In this document: piece by piece, positions 18,006 to 27,384 of the stretch
How the letters are laid out: every line of letters starts with the position of its first letter
How positions within the stretch are numbered: position 1 is the first letter of the stretch
NCBI RefSeq assembly: GCF_003269295.1
Contig: NZ_QLTT01000002.1
Coordinates: forward strand, 186,001 to 250,000
Source of the DNA: Lentzea atacamensis
Lineage (GTDB): Bacteria; Actinomycetota; Actinomycetes; Mycobacteriales; Pseudonocardiaceae
DNA length: 64,000 nucleotides
Direction: 5' to 3'
Position numbers and translations under genes: made by a program
Notes under the pieces: generated by a model
Databases searched by the model: none
Seen by the model: only the letters and a program-made list of their open reading frames with translations
What the model was told of the DNA's origin: nothing

Positions 18006-18146
18006 TCTGTGCTCCTTTCGGACACCATCCTGCCGCGTGAACGTGCGCTGGCTAACCCCCAGGTGGCCGTCTTCTGCCGAACGGAGGAATGTGCGACGCT
18101 CTCCGGGTTCGGGGCAGCGCTCCCGGTTGGGGGGAGGGCAATACAG

Positions 18147-19343
18147 GTGCGGGACTGGCCGGTGTGGACTTTGCGGCGGCCCGCGCTCTGTTACTGGTTG
18201 ATCATCGACCTGGCCGCTCTGGTCCTCGTCACCTACGTGATCATCTCCACGCCCACCCCGTCACCTTCCGAAATCGGCCGTTTCGCCGCCATCGCCGGCA
18301 CCGCGGGCGCCGTGATCATCGCCAGTTCGATCTACAGCCACCGCCTGGGTGAGACCGAGCGCAACCCGTGGGCAGCGCACCTCTCCTACCTGACGGCGGG
18401 CATCCTCGCGCTGCCCCCGAACCTGATGGTCCTGCTGCTCTTCGGCCCCGCGCTGCACTGCCTGCTGGCGCAACGCCCGGAGATGTACCGCTGGTTGTTC
18501 ACGCTCAGCGCCACGACCCTCGCCGTCTTCGCCACCCGCTACCTGCTCGGCTGGGCGGACTCGCACGCGAGCCTGCTGATCATGGTCTTGGGAGCCACCG
18601 TGCTCCTGGCCCTGCGCGCGGCCCTGATCTCGGTCGGCCTGAAGCTCCGCCGTCCGGCCGCGACCTTCGAGGAGAACGTCGGCGAACCCATCGACGTGGT
18701 CCTCGGCATTGTCGCGGTGTCCATCGGTGGCCTCATGGGCTGCGTCGCGGAGTCCAACGCCGTCCACGCACTGATCGCGGGCCCGCCCCTGCTCCTGCTG
18801 GAACGCGCAGCCCAGCTCCCGCAGTGGCGCCGCTCGGCCCAGCGCGACGCCAAGACCGGCCTCGCCAACGCCGTGCACTGGGACAGTCGCGCCCGCTACG
18901 AGCTGACCAAGGCCTCGGCCCGCGCCCGTCCGATGGCCGTGATGCTGCTCGACCTCGACCACTTCAAGAAGGTCAACGACGAGGTGGGCCACCTCGCCGG
19001 CGACGCCGCTCTCGCCGCCATCTCGTTGTTGCTGCGCGGCACCGTTCGCCGTGGTGATCTCGTAGGCCGGTTCGGCGGCGAGGAGTTCGTCGTCCTGCTG
19101 CCCGAGGCCACGCCGGACGAGGCCGAGTCGGTGGCGGAACGGGTGCGCAAGGCCGTGGCAGCGCTTCGCGTGCCGACGATGGCGACGGACGGGAAGCCGC
19201 ACGAGCTGCGTGGGCTGACCGTGTCGATCGGTGTCGCCACCACGACGCGGTTCGGCTACGAGCTGCCGGACCTGTTGGTGGCGGCCGATGCCGCGTTGCT
19301 CGCGGCCAAGGCGTACGGCCGCAACCTGGTCTCGATGGCCTAG
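18147..19343 (+). CDS. Membrane diguanylate cyclase (GGDEF)
   Basis: A 398-residue protein with about six to seven membrane helices (residues 15-225) and a C-terminal GGDEF domain. It should make cyclic di-GMP from two GTP. The domain starts at RDAKTGLANAVHWDSRAR; the metal site is LLDLDHFKKVNDEVGH and the active-site loop is GRFGGEEFVVLLPEA. The inhibitory I-site RxxD is present as RRGD, five residues before GGEEF, so product feedback is likely. GTG at 18147 was chosen because GGGGGGAGGG lies 8 bases before it, and upstream in-frame starts lack such a site. The gene ends in a TAG that belongs to a palindromic element. Confidence 0.92.
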   Translation: MRDWPVWTLRRPALCYWLIIDLAALVLVTYVIISTPTPSPSEIGRFAAIAGTAGAVIIASSIYSHRLGETERNPWAAHLSYLTAGILALPPNLMVLLLFGPALHCLLAQRPEMYRWLFTLSATTLAVFATRYLLGWADSHASLLIMVLGATVLLALRAALISVGLKLRRPAATFEENVGEPIDVVLGIVAVSIGGLMGCVAESNAVHALIAGPPLLLLERAAQLPQWRRSAQRDAKTGLANAVHWDSRARYELTKASARARPMAVMLLDLDHFKKVNDEVGHLAGDAALAAISLLLRGTVRRGDLVGRFGGEEFVVLLPEATPDEAESVAERVRKAVAALRVPTMATDGKPHELRGLTVSIGVATTTRFGYELPDLLVAADAALLAAKAYGRNLVSMA

Positions 19344-22824: not shown

Positions 22825-22974
22825 TCTTGGGCGGTGCGTTCACACGATGTAGTTAACCGAGTGCTCTGGGCGTGCATTCGGGGTGCCGGGACTGGCAGAG
22901 TCGCCGACGTCGACTTGATCACGTTGATCGTCGGCGAATCCCTTGAGCGCCACCGAGTAGCGAGGTTTCCTGCG

Positions 22975-23730
22975 TTGTTCTCCGCCGATCTGCGAGCGAA
23001 GACGGGAGCGAACGGCATCCGCCGGTTCGCCACCCGAGCGCTGCTCGCTGTCGGTGGTGCGATCGCGGGTACGGCCGTTGCCTGGGCGCTGACCACGTCT
23101 TCCGCGCACGCTGCGGAAGACGTGCAGCAGTTCGACGCCGTCACCAAGATCGTCTCTGTGGACGAGAAGCTGCCGGTCGTCGTCCCCGCTGCCGCCGCAG
23201 TGCACAAGATCGACGAAACGCTGCGCGCCGAGCAGCAGAAGGCTCGCGCCGCCCTGCCGGACGTGCAGGTCCAGACGACGGTCGAAAAGATCGCCGAGCG
23301 GATCCTGCCGCAGGTCACCAGGATCGGTCAGTCCCACGCCCCCGCCACGGCGCGGTCGATGGACGTGACGTTCCCGGAGATCCCGGCTCCCCCCGCCGAT
23401 GCCGGACAGTCGCCGGCCCCGGTGGTCTCGCAGTTCACCGGTCCCTCCGGTGCCACGTGGACGGATCTGCTGGAGTCGGGCGACTTCGTCGTGCCCGTCG
23501 AGCAGCGTCCGTCCCTGCCCAGCAACCCGTTCCCGAAGCTGCCCGTCCCGGCCCCCGCGCCGGTGCAGTGCACTTCGTGCTCCGACGGTTCTGGTTCCGC
23601 GAACGGCGGCAAGTCCGCTGCTCTGGCTGCGTCCGGCACCCACGGCACCTCGGTGACGCGCGCTCTCGCGCCGTCCACCGACGAGGTGACCGTCACGCCG
23701 GGCAAGCAGCCCGGTATCAACCCCGACTGA
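22975..23730 (+). CDS. Secreted protein of unknown function, upstream of the chaplin-like repeat protein
   Basis: The product has an Arg-rich start and a hydrophobic segment (ALLAVGGAIAGTAVAWALTT) ending in SAHAAED, a plausible signal-peptidase I site. A helical region of about 80 residues follows (DETLRAEQQKARAALPDVQV; TVEKIAERILPQVTRI). The rest is a Pro/Ser-rich tail with one Cys pair (CTSC). The start is uncertain: TTG at 22975 has GAGG nine bases upstream, whereas GTG at 22834 has no ribosome site and would add a poorly coding-like 47 residues. The gene lies 188 bases before the chaplin-like gene on the same strand; cell-surface partnership is inference. I recognise no domain. Confidence 0.65.
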   Translation: MFSADLRAKTGANGIRRFATRALLAVGGAIAGTAVAWALTTSSAHAAEDVQQFDAVTKIVSVDEKLPVVVPAAAAVHKIDETLRAEQQKARAALPDVQVQTTVEKIAERILPQVTRIGQSHAPATARSMDVTFPEIPAPPADAGQSPAPVVSQFTGPSGATWTDLLESGDFVVPVEQRPSLPSNPFPKLPVPAPAPVQCTSCSDGSGSANGGKSAALAASGTHGTSVTRALAPSTDEVTVTPGKQPGINPD

Positions 23731-23918
23731 TTCCAGCGCGCGGTCCGCGGCAGCCACCTCCCCGGCTGTCCGGAAGTCGACCGTCGCGCTTTTTCTTGCG
23801 CTCCTTCCGGTCGCTCACCGCGTGCGCCTCCCCCGGTGATGACGCGCCTTCCCCAAGCGCGTCCGGCCCCACCCCCAGAACCCCCGTCGTCGAGACGGGA
23901 CATTTGGAAGGAGACCCA

Positions 23919-26900
23919 ATGCAGACCTGGGCAAAGCGCGGAATCCAGTCCGCGTTTGTCACTGGTGGTTTGCTGATGCTCGGTACGGGCATCGCTTCTG
24001 CCCAGGAGAACGTCAACCCCGACTCGGCACCGTCGCCCGTTGACGTGGGCGTTTCGGTTCCGGTGAAGGTGGACCAGAACAACCTGGGCACCCCCGCCAA
24101 GAACCTGAACGTTCCCAAGATCGACCGCACGATCAGCACGGACCGCGTCACCAGCGCGGTGCCAGTCCGCACGGCTGCGCCCGTCGCCCACCCGCTGATC
24201 AAGCAGGCCACCGACCGCGTGCAGCTGGCTGCCGCGCAGGGCCTGCTCCGCGGCAACACGGTCCAGGCACACGTCGATGTGCCGATCCACATCTGCGGCA
24301 ACGCGATCGCGGTCCTCGGCAACGCCGAGGCGGTCGGCGACTGCGACCAGGTGACGCACCGCGACGGCAGCATCGTCACCGACGGCGAAGGCCAGGCTCT
24401 CGCCGGCAACGTCGTCGCCGTCAACCACATCCTGCCGATCCAGCTCACCGGCAACGCGATCGCGGCGGGCGGCAACGCCATCACGGCGACCGACGCTTCG
24501 CAGGTGTCGACGACCGGCGGCCCCATCACCACCGACGGTGACAAGGGCGCGGTCTCCGGCAACGTCGTGGCCGAGCAGGGCGCGACGCCGATCCAGATCA
24601 CCGGCAACGGTGTGGGCGCGGTCGGCATCGCCGAGGCCAACTCCACCGCCGACACGTTCGCCTCCTCCGAGGGCGACGTCGCCACCAGCGGCAATGACAG
24701 CTCGATCTCCGGCAACGCCGTGCCGATCCCGCTGGCTCCGCTGTTCGAGGTGAACGGCAACGCGGTCGGCGGTGCGGCCAACGCCGCCACCCAGTCGACG
24801 CAGACCGGTACCGCGTACGCCGGTGGCAACACGGCGACCGACGGCAACCCCGCCACGCTCGCAGGCAACATCGTCGAGCCCGCGCTCGCCGGCCCGATCA
24901 CGGTCGACGACAACGCGGTCGCCGGTGGTGGCAACGCCACGGCGATCAGCGACACGACCAACGAGTCGATCGCGGGTGGCCAGAAGAACACCAACGGTGC
25001 GGACGCCACGGGGTCCGGCAACATCGCCGACGCGCCGATCTCGCTGCCCACCGCCGTGGGTGGCAACGGTGCCGCGGTCATCGGCAACGCGCTGACCGAC
25101 CACACGAACGAGGCGACGTCGACCGCGGGTGGCCCCGGCTACACCCTGGGCGACAACTCGGTCCTGTCCGGCAACATCGTCGACGCTCCCCCGGCCACGG
25201 CCGTGGACGTGTGCGGCAACGGTGCCGCCGGCGCCGGCCAGGCGGCCGGCACCTGCGAGAACGACGTCAAGTCGGGTACCTCGGGCTACGTGGGCACGAC
25301 CGGCAACGACTCGGTCGTCTCCGGCAACGTGGTGCAGACCCCGCTGGCCGCTCCGGCCGAGGCCTACGGCCTGGCCAGCGCGGCCGCCGGTTCCGCCACG
25401 GGTTCGGCGGACGAGACCAAGGACGTCCGCTCCGGCGGTCAGCCGAACACGGTCGACGACAAGGGCACGGTCTCGAGCAACGTCGTGACCGCCCCCACCG
25501 CGGCCGCGGCGCAGGTCTTCGCGGTTACCGCCGGTCTCGTGGGCAACACCGAGTCCGACACCTCGAACGACACGTCGGTCACCGCCGGCGGGGACCCGAA
25601 GGCCACCGGCAAGAAGAGCTCGGTGTCCGGCAACATCGTCCAGGCCCCGACCTCGACGCCGGCCCAGGTCTTCGGCGACGGCGTCACCCTGGTCGGCAAC
25701 AACTCGACCAACGGTGACAACGCCACCGACATGAAGGCGGGTGGCCCCGCCCACACCGAGGGTGACGCGGGCTCGATCGCGGGCAACGTCGTGTCGGCTC
25801 CGGTCGCGTCCGCCACGCAGGTCCAGGGCTGGGCGGTCGGCGGCGGCAGCAACGTCGACTCCATCGTCACCAACGACCTCGACTCGGTCGCTGGCGGCAA
25901 CGTCGACAGCAGCGCTGACGGCGGTTCGGTGTCCGGCAACCTCATCGGTGCGCAGGCCACCCCGTTCGTCCCGGTGCCCGGCAACTCGGTCTCCGCGGCG
26001 GGCATCACCAACTCCGACACGTTTACCGACACCAACACCGTGGCGGGTGGCGACAGCACCTCCACCGCCGAGGACGCCTCGGTCTCCGGCAACCTGATCC
26101 ACGTCCCCGCGAACGCCATCGCCGGCTTCTACGCGAACGCGATCGCGGCTGCGGGCCAGGCCAACACGGTCACCGACAAGGTCTCGCACACCCAGGCCGG
26201 TGGCGACATGGAGACGGACGGCAGCGGCCCGCTGACCGCCCGCGAGATGACCGTCCCCGTCGAGGCGGCTGCCAAGGTCGCGCGGATTCCCGTCGAGGTC
26301 CTCGGCCAGGCGACCACCGCGGGCACGAGCGACGACACGCAGCTCACCGGCGAGGACCAGGGCACCCTGCGTGCCACCCAGCTCAAGGGCCTCGAGCTGC
26401 CCAAGGGCGTGGACAGCCTGCTCAAGGCCAACGAGGTTCCGGCGTTCCACGGCATCGACCAGCTGCCGGTGAACAGCCTGCCGAGCGTTGACGGCCTGTC
26501 CGCGATGGCCGGCCAGCTGCCCACCCCGGCGCTGCCCGGTGTCGCTCAGGAGCGCACCGAGCTGCCGACCGGCCTCGGTGGCGTGGCGAACCTGAACCCG
26601 AACGTCCAGGGTCTGCCCCTGGGCCAGGTGCTGGAGGCCGCCAAGGGCCTGCTCCCCGGTGCCGCCGCCGAGCGTTCGCTGCCGTCCCTCCCGGTGACCG
26701 CCCCGGCCCTGCCGGTGCCGGTGCAGCTGCCCGCTCTGCCGACCGAGCGCTCGCTGCCCGCTCTGCCGCTGGACGGCCCGGCCTCCCTCTCGGGTATCAA
26801 CCTGAACCCGACCCAGGGCCTGGCCCCGAAGGCCGAGGAGCGCTCGCTCCCGCAGCTGCCGCTGGACACCCCGGCGCTGGCCATGATCGACCCGGCCAAC

Positions 26901-26930
26901 CTGTTCCAGACGGTGACCGGCTCGCTGTAA
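23919..26930 (+). CDS. Giant secreted protein with 13 chaplin-like 51-residue repeats
   Basis: A 1003-residue secreted protein. Its signal peptide ends near residue 29 (LMLGTGIASAQ). Residues 111-773 are thirteen consecutive repeats of exactly 51 residues with no gaps. Each begins [SA/R]GN and [VI] pairs, has a GN near position 17 and an AGG near position 39. Repeat 1 (GNTVQAHVDVPIHICGNAI) matches the chaplin pattern GN.VQ..V..P...CGN. Cysteines occur as pairs only in repeats 1 and 7; the other repeats are cysteine-free. The tail (774-1003) is Pro/Leu-rich with three copies of ERSLPxLP. No LPXTG or membrane anchor is seen. GGAAGGAG precedes the ATG, and a strong hairpin terminator follows. 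A role in surface hydrophobicity or aerial growth is inferred from chaplins. Confidence 0.85.
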   Translation: MQTWAKRGIQSAFVTGGLLMLGTGIASAQENVNPDSAPSPVDVGVSVPVKVDQNNLGTPAKNLNVPKIDRTISTDRVTSAVPVRTAAPVAHPLIKQATDRVQLAAAQGLLRGNTVQAHVDVPIHICGNAIAVLGNAEAVGDCDQVTHRDGSIVTDGEGQALAGNVVAVNHILPIQLTGNAIAAGGNAITATDASQVSTTGGPITTDGDKGAVSGNVVAEQGATPIQITGNGVGAVGIAEANSTADTFASSEGDVATSGNDSSISGNAVPIPLAPLFEVNGNAVGGAANAATQSTQTGTAYAGGNTATDGNPATLAGNIVEPALAGPITVDDNAVAGGGNATAISDTTNESIAGGQKNTNGADATGSGNIADAPISLPTAVGGNGAAVIGNALTDHTNEATSTAGGPGYTLGDNSVLSGNIVDAPPATAVDVCGNGAAGAGQAAGTCENDVKSGTSGYVGTTGNDSVVSGNVVQTPLAAPAEAYGLASAAAGSATGSADETKDVRSGGQPNTVDDKGTVSSNVVTAPTAAAAQVFAVTAGLVGNTESDTSNDTSVTAGGDPKATGKKSSVSGNIVQAPTSTPAQVFGDGVTLVGNNSTNGDNATDMKAGGPAHTEGDAGSIAGNVVSAPVASATQVQGWAVGGGSNVDSIVTNDLDSVAGGNVDSSADGGSVSGNLIGAQATPFVPVPGNSVSAAGITNSDTFTDTNTVAGGDSTSTAEDASVSGNLIHVPANAIAGFYANAIAAAGQANTVTDKVSHTQAGGDMETDGSGPLTAREMTVPVEAAAKVARIPVEVLGQATTAGTSDDTQLTGEDQGTLRATQLKGLELPKGVDSLLKANEVPAFHGIDQLPVNSLPSVDGLSAMAGQLPTPALPGVAQERTELPTGLGGVANLNPNVQGLPLGQVLEAAKGLLPGAAAERSLPSLPVTAPALPVPVQLPALPTERSLPALPLDGPASLSGINLNPTQGLAPKAEERSLPQLPLDTPALAMIDPANLFQTVTGSL
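24249..26237 (+). repeat. Thirteen tandem 153-bp coding repeats (diverged)
   Basis: The protein repeats translate from thirteen back-to-back 153-bp units with perfect phase, 1989 bp in all. The units begin at 24249 and every 153 bases after that. They have diverged in DNA sequence, so the period is seen best in protein. The most constant codons encode SGN at the start, GN near the 17th residue and AGG near the 39th. Diverged but exactly phased repeats suggest old duplications kept under length selection, unlike a recent slippage array. Confidence 0.85.
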
Positions 26931-27027: not shown

Positions 27028-27384
27028 TCAGCGGTTCTCTGCGGTGGCGATCATGTCGTCCGGAGCGGCGTCACCGTCGCTCGTCACCCAGTGGATCTGC
27101 GGGCTGTCCCCGACGAGCTGCCTGATCAGCGACGAGATCGGCGAGCCGTCGCCGAAGTCGTGTTCGGCGAGCACGGCCAGGACCGCGTCGCCGTAGCGGG
27201 CGACGGTGAAGTCCGGGCGCAGGCCCGCCCGCAGTGCGCGGGCCGCGTCCAGCAGGGAGTCCGGACTCGTGATCAGGACGAGGGTCACGAGGGTGCCGCG
27301 CGTGCGGGCGCGGATCAGCGACTGCTCAAGGCGGTCGAGCAGCAGTGCGTGTCCGGGCAGGCCTGTGAGCGGGTCGTGCAGCAC
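27028..27384 (-). CDS. Short degenerate GGDEF-like protein
   Basis: A 118-residue product that begins like the N-terminal part of a GGDEF domain: LHDPLTGLPGHALLLDRLEQ, then SLIRARTRG. The catalytic GGDEF loop is replaced by RYGDAVLAVLAE and the metal-binding Asp segment is gone (VTLVLITSPDSLLDAARA). It is shorter than a full domain of about 160 residues. It cannot be an active cyclase; it may be a remnant or a nucleotide-binding adaptor. The GTG start lies 9 bases after the stop of the DUF998 gene on the same strand, so it may be the last gene of that operon. Confidence 0.6.
   Translation of the reverse strand: MLHDPLTGLPGHALLLDRLEQSLIRARTRGTLVTLVLITSPDSLLDAARALRAGLRPDFTVARYGDAVLAVLAEHDFGDGSPISSLIRQLVGDSPQIHWVTSDGDAAPDDMIATAENR

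Follow-up and report, generated by a model that had tools for sequence, protein, structure and literature searches.

A 64,000-nucleotide stretch of the Lentzea atacamensis genome (family Pseudonocardiaceae; NZ_QLTT01000002.1, positions 186,001 to 250,000), hereafter the window, carries a gene for a secreted-looking protein whose central block consists of thirteen consecutive 51-residue units related to the chaplin domain (Table 1). The open reading frame (ORF) begins at an ATG with AAGGAG just 5' of it and its stop codon occupies 26928-26930. A sequence-only reading of this DNA had described residues 111-773 as thirteen 51-residue units without remainder, each opened by an SGN-type triplet, with a Cys pair in units 1 and 7 alone, and all three points were borne out. 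The opening triplet is [SAR][GS]N with Asn at unit position 3 in 299 of 299 instances (23 proteins), and no unit of the window protein other than 1 and 7 contains Cys. The lag-51 identity of 0.358 lies far above the 0.156 that 1000 shuffles reached at best across lags of 20 to 129, and a chance repeat was rejected; the corresponding BLOSUM z is 23. Weaker sub-lags of 29 residues (z 5.9) and 22 residues (z 4.5) sum to 51 and thereby hint that one unit holds two coils. Added here to the earlier description are a decayed 14th unit, a signal-peptide-like start and an upstream partner gene. The start shows K/R, a hydrophobic stretch and ASA, from which secretion is predicted by eye, and many of its columns are invariant or nearly so in a 60-sequence alignment.

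Table 1. Features of the chaplin-repeat gene and its upstream partner (window coordinates).
Feature	Position	Strand	Basis
Partner: secreted-looking Pro-rich protein ending PGKQPGINPD-stop	22975..23730	+	Q[P/A]G..PD C-terminus
Terminator-like hairpin and T run between partner and repeat gene	23735..23795	+	Fold energy; mostly conserved arms
Chaplin-repeat protein, 1003 aa	23919..26930	+	ORF; PF03777 36.5 bits, E 4.5e-9; same-genus orthologues in 23/23 genomes
Signal-peptide-like N-terminal segment MQTWAKRG..FVTGG..GIASA, residues 1-28	23919..24002	+	By inspection
Ordered N-terminal beta segment, residues 41-73, possible cap	24039..24137	+	Predicted local distance difference test (pLDDT) of the AlphaFold2 (AF2) model
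Thirteen 51-residue chaplin-type units, residues 111-773	24249..26237	+	Lag-51 identity, BLOSUM lag z, hhalign
Unit 1, chaplin Cys pair retained	24249..24401	+	Unit alignment
Unit 7, Cys pair retained	25167..25319	+	Unit alignment
Decayed 14th unit, residues 774-824	26238..26390	+	Aligns in register; predicted beta
Pro/Leu-rich tail with ERSLPxLP repeats, predicted disordered	26391..26927	+	pLDDT; length variation

Relation to the chaplin domain

The sequence-only reading had proposed a relation to chaplins, to be looked for by Pfam or profile search, and the relation was found by both. The window protein matches PF03777 at 36.5 bits (E = 4.5e-9), the gathering cut-off being 21 bits. Its 13 units, aligned with 16 canonical chaplin domains (all out of a single family, judged by sequence to be streptomycetes), gave an hhalign probability of 96.3% (E = 1.5e-9) over 26 gapless columns. 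In the reverse search, all 16 canonical chaplins were matched (E between 2.1e-10 and 1.6e-6 at Z = 100) by a profile of 259 units drawn from 20 proteins, to which 19 of the 80 named relatives introduced below contributed. Among nine diverse relatives, PF03777 was the sole Pfam family at E <=0.1 in every one, and it was above cut-off in six. Because the Pfam, profile-profile and reverse searches agree, the units are, on homology, descendants of the chaplin domain. NCBIfam searches gave nothing useful, and profile searches of PDB sequences gave no significant relative of chaplins or of the 51-residue units.

Likeness to the Streptomyces chaplins (ChpA-H) extends to an N-terminus that by eye resembles a signal peptide and, in gapless register, to SGN at unit positions 1-3, Pro at 8 and 12, Cys/Gly/Asn at 16-18 and Gly at 24. 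In the published accounts (PMC numbers, here and below, refer to partial texts), canonical chaplins carry one or two domains (PMC5618241), whereas window-type proteins carry 13-14 units in a 51-residue phase without linkers. Two Cys are described per chaplin, ChpE excepted (PMC5618241), while the Cys pair is missing from 11 of 13 window units; the chaplin domain is described as highly hydrophobic (PMC13251363), while each window unit has a hydrophilic second half; and, unlike in the long chaplins, no C-terminal sortase signal was seen in the window protein. Since domain number, Cys pairs, overall hydrophobicity and sortase end all differ, the window protein is, on these characters, chaplin-like and not a canonical chaplin. 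Three GN motifs, 12-13 residues apart and located at turns, have been reported for chaplins (PMC13251363). The window units have GN or variants of it at positions 2-3, 17-18 and 24-25, i.e., spaced 15 and 7, and the strands of the AF2 model break at positions 2-3 and 17-18, with no break at 24-25.

The sequence-only reading also implied that many chaplin copies in one chain would be an oddity, and this part did not stand. Chains with about 3-11 PF03777-type domains occur in other actinobacterial families (f31, f5, f51, f22), so that many domains per chain are not unique to the family of the window, and in that family itself long repeat proteins are the usual setting of PF03777 (74 of 83 listed places). 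The proteins of the other families differ in having a period of 52-57 (ten ORFs read), variable spacers and, in several, LPxTG-type C-termini; several keep their Cys pairs, and the MQTWAKRG..VTGG start is absent, with one similar start (L178). Loci L176, L178 and others in these families hold chaplin-type chains of up to about 11 domains, several with LPxTG-type ends. Among other systems, CwpA and CwpB of Actinoplanes are hydrophobic actinobacterial surface proteins that have been likened to chaplins in print; they differ in being reported as sortase-anchored and, in the partial text of that paper, as lacking chaplin domains (PMC13251363). The curli subunit CsgA R15.5 (PDB 8c50) was also compared, and the curlin repeat motif was not found in the window protein; a Pfam scan of that protein up to E 10 returned ChpA-C only and no curlin repeat.

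Distribution and constancy of the repeat block

An orthologue is present in 23 of 23 same-genus genomes, the copy of G013 (a 630-contig draft) being in two pieces, split between frames; it was excluded from the set used for block lengths and Cys counts, which comprises the window protein and 22 same-genus orthologues. The nearest named relative is that of L. flava (86% identity). Across the family, the window protein matches 116 of 150 genomes and 39 of 46 genera, although many of them score weakly (E 1e-4 to 1e-8), perhaps through the shared N-terminus only; PF03777 exceeds its cut-off in 54 of the genomes and 26 of the genera. The 74 long PF03777 places mentioned above lie in stop-to-stop frames of at least 900 residues and the other nine in frames of 62-526 residues. 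Only one of these nine scores like a canonical short chaplin (L072, G011:C10:42589-42717; 87-residue frame, 76 bits), in a same-genus genome that also has the repeat protein. The window's own genome, 99.55% complete in 32 contigs, has PF03777 at one place only, the gene described here. Two diverged paralogues, B (L032:2537-5140, minus strand) and C (L033:4843-8202, plus strand), match the window protein there at E 1.1e-81 and 5.0e-58, and their repeat is visible by eye.

The best 80 of 155 relatives were compared as a named set (81 sequences with the window, 60 of them used in alignments), drawn from Lentzea, Umezawaea, Saccharothrix, Actinosynnema, Amycolatopsis, Prauserella, Actinokineospora, Kutzneria, Thermocrispum and other genera. 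The strongest period is 51 in 79 of the 80, and in the exception (L136) the 51-residue spacing is still visible with the unit profile. The unit count is nearly constant among them, with 13 units in 54 proteins, 14 in 24, 15 in one and 17 in one. Spacing between units is exactly 51 in 754 of 990 cases, the 236 others marking some insertions across genera. In the 23 same-genus proteins the repeat block measures 663 aa in 19, 664 in three and 673 in one, a tighter lock on length than expected by chance, while the tail ranges from 176 to 299 aa. Outside the Lentzea/Saccharothrix group, 35 relatives were compared unit by unit with the window protein; on average 7.7 of their 13 units (range 4-11) match best the same-numbered window unit, where chance would give one; units were set by multiple alignment, which somewhat favours this result. 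By this measure the unit order is ancient. With block length and unit number near-fixed, unit order old and tail length free, a defined rod length appears to be under selection. Cys content is less constrained across the family: the same-genus proteins have four Cys in 22 of 23 (window included) and five in one, and the 80 named relatives have 0 to 6, with none in nine, so that the architecture does not depend on disulfides.

Upstream partner gene

At each of the 80 loci examined (79 named relatives and the window; L079 was left out because of a contig edge), the repeat gene is preceded by an ORF that ends in Q[P/A]G..PD; in the window this ORF lies directly upstream. The tag reads QPGVTPD in 42 loci, QPGINPD in 17, QPGITPD in 11 and QPGTTPD in six, and QPGSTPD, QPGNTPD, QPGVAPD and QAGITPD were each found once. 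In the window, the start codon of the partner is uncertain, TTG 22975 being a guess within a frame that opens at 22834. The partner protein has no significant Pfam family in a Pfam scan, and a homology search with the C-terminal part as query found relatives in only 9 of 60 family genomes; as the body of the partner diverges this quickly, its conserved part consists of the tag and the position.

Searched as a strict DNA pattern, the tag occurs in 79 of 150 family genomes, and the reversed pattern in none. Class-wide it occurs in 2 of 296 genomes, both of the window's family and one of them the window's own, while the reversed pattern appears once each in four genomes, which is the chance level. 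Among the matches listed, 66 of 81 strict-pattern places sit 126-760 bases upstream of a repeat-gene match, the larger of these distances arising where the listed match begins inside the protein. Fifteen places lie away from a listed repeat gene, and nine of these regions were read. At four (L183, L184, L185, L187) the gene after the tag gene encodes an MQ[TS]WAKRG protein of 484-561 aa that lacks the 51-residue repeat; the pair of partner and WAKRG protein is therefore wider than the repeat itself. At the other five (L186, L188, L189, L190, L191) no MQ[TS]WAKRG gene was recognised after the tag gene in the stretch fetched. Among six flanks read of repeat genes that escaped the strict pattern, four have a tag variant, and no tag was seen in the stretch fetched for L193 and L197. 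As for the paralogues, the ORF upstream of B ends in GKQPGRTPD and no tagged ORF was found within 2 kb upstream of C.

The hairpin after the partner stop (fold of 23730-23800) has an energy of -32.7 kcal/mol, which none of 200 shuffles equalled (z -3.1), and when 19 upstream regions are aligned its arms prove mostly conserved. Because it resembles a terminator, partner and repeat gene may be separate transcription units. In 73 of 80 relatives the N-terminal region of the repeat protein has a [VI]xPD motif similar to the tag, perhaps a recognition motif shared with the partner tag, which we offer as a lead only. A small hairpin also lies just 5' of the ribosome-binding site (about 23880-23910), of the CCCGTC-loop-GACGGG type in several Lentzea. 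Hairpins of a CCC-GNRA-GGG type occur in the 5' untranslated region of 44 of 80 loci; we do not claim them as an element, since their mean stability (-11.5 kcal/mol) is no greater than that of a control stretch (-13.9 kcal/mol).

In the wider neighbourhood, a relative of an AI-2E-transporter gene is found in 79 of 80 loci and a DnaB gene in at least 60 of 80 (the flanks end at 8 kb). Just downstream of the repeat gene in the window lies a short GGDEF-like fragment gene (27028-27384, minus strand), and a full GGDEF gene (18009-19343, plus strand) lies upstream. An assignment of function from synteny was rejected, as the neighbours (GGDEF proteins, AI-2E transporter, LuxR-type response regulator and DnaB) point to none.

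Predicted structure and physical character

AF2 modelling, which the sequence-only reading had suggested, returned a confidently predicted beta-solenoid for the repeat block, with pLDDT block means of 83-97 over residues ~111-810. The decayed 14th unit is still beta in the model (block means 83-89, residues 771-810) and pLDDT stays below 50 from residue 814 onward. Towards the N-terminus, block means are 86, 91 and 89 over residues 41-70 and fall to 61 over residues 71-80. Units 1-6 modelled alone reached a mean pLDDT of 92.2 (five models, 89.8-92.2). A specific kinship with curli was not upheld, because the best structural neighbour shifts with the model used.

The first half of the unit, homologous to the chaplin core, has a hydropathy of +0.52, compared with +0.60 for chaplin domains, and the second half, rich in Asp/Asn/Ser/Thr/Gly, one of -0.62. 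The repeat block is acidic, with 62 D/E against 13 K/R.

Interpretation and rival explanations

We propose that the window protein is a pre-assembled rod of the surface coat, possibly placed by its tail or its partner, a reading that we hold to be probable, if only just. A secreted protein of chaplin ancestry would have 13-14 chaplin units fused without linkers in one chain, and these would stack as coils of a parallel beta-solenoid into one rigid rod of defined length. Because each unit pairs a hydrophobic core half with a hydrophilic second half, the rod is expected to be amphipathic and could show one hydrophobic and one hydrophilic face. According to a published proposal, chaplins line the cell-air interface with an amphipathic amyloid layer (PMC5618241), and the rod could coat hyphae or spores like that layer in Streptomyces, as a covalently pre-assembled counterpart of the chaplin fibril. 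The disordered Pro/Leu tail, the upstream partner or both might set it at the wall. The predicted solenoid and the near-fixed unit number fit this proposal.

Several observations weigh against it. The five full-length AF2 models vary more than those of units 1-6, with mean pLDDT of 65.4-77.5. AF2 is reported to hallucinate beta-solenoids for perfect repeats, imperfect ones being untested by the authors in the partial text (PMC11795689); the units here are imperfect and the alignment behind the model is real. In Foldseek no solved structure matched significantly (best E 0.02, probability 0.03), and none of the 22 rows had a TM-score above 0.21. The whole repeat block has a grand average of hydropathy of -0.04 and is not hydrophobic, unlike canonical chaplins. 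No sortase anchor was seen by eye in the window protein, where an LPVTA at residue 924 of 1003 lacks a following hydrophobic span and basic end; an LPxTG-like motif near the C-terminus occurs in 3 of 80 named relatives. Finally, PF03777 falls below cut-off in three of the nine diverse relatives and in both paralogues, B scoring 17.9 bits and C giving no match in the Pfam scan.

Three other explanations were weighed. The protein could be a rigid beta-solenoid spacer or adhesin, by analogy with autotransporter passengers or EtpA; it would present a binding end or attach to polysaccharide and play no part in surface hydrophobicity. EtpA, Vag8, RsaA and PL6 lyases (adhesins, S-layer or polysaccharide-binding solenoids) are indeed among the structural neighbours of the models, the near-fixed length would suit a spacer, and the acidic, overall non-hydrophobic block would agree with it. 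However, Pfam shows no separate binding domain, the only other large part is the disordered tail and the sequence homology found is with chaplins; we regard this explanation as unlikely. Harder still to credit is a matrix protein of the cell wall or envelope that is constitutive in every hypha, works together with the Q[P/A]G..PD partner and has no role in aerial growth. The conserved chromosomal setting would suit such a protein, as would the persistence of the tagged partner at the four loci whose downstream WAKRG protein has no repeats, but the chaplin homology points to a surface sheath. Least probable is a flexible or disordered acidic surface polymer with the solenoid as an AF2 artefact, which the published bias for perfect repeats, the Gly/Ala/Thr/Ser/Asn-rich composition and the non-significant Foldseek matches would favour, and against which stand the block of exactly 663 residues in 19 of 23 proteins beside a drifting tail, the sub-lags that suggest coils within the unit and the high pLDDT of all five models of units 1-6.

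Significance

Judged from the sequences compared, the coat-rod candidate and its relatives are distinct from other multi-domain chaplin-like proteins in their linker-free 51-residue phase and near-fixed unit number, in having lost the sortase end and most Cys pairs, in the partner gene, and in their wide presence in a family where canonical chaplins seem to be rare. In the chaplin literature searched, which covers few subscription journals and no preprints, we recognised no description of multi-unit chaplins from Pseudonocardiaceae. A survey of development in actinobacteria published in 2013, with Amycolatopsis mediterranei and further Pseudonocardiaceae among its genomes, reported chaplin-like genes for several genera outside the family and, in its partial text, none within it (PMC4255298).

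A bolder view, possible in our opinion but doubtful, is that the part played in Streptomyces by many short self-assembling chaplins is taken in Pseudonocardiaceae by one covalent rod of near-fixed length with 13-14 rungs, together with a dedicated secreted partner tagged QPG..PD. In that case the predicted rod would show the still unsolved fold of the chaplin fibril, a chaplin corresponding to a parallel beta-solenoid rung of about two coils, and chaplin amyloid and rod would share one architecture in a non-covalent and a covalent form. As its units are fused, the repeat protein may be a tractable route to the structure of the chaplin fold, and the partner gene would offer a genetic handle. 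If the repeat proteins form a hyphal sheath, the gap that the survey left in Pseudonocardiaceae would be filled and chaplin evolution would gain a pre-linked branch.

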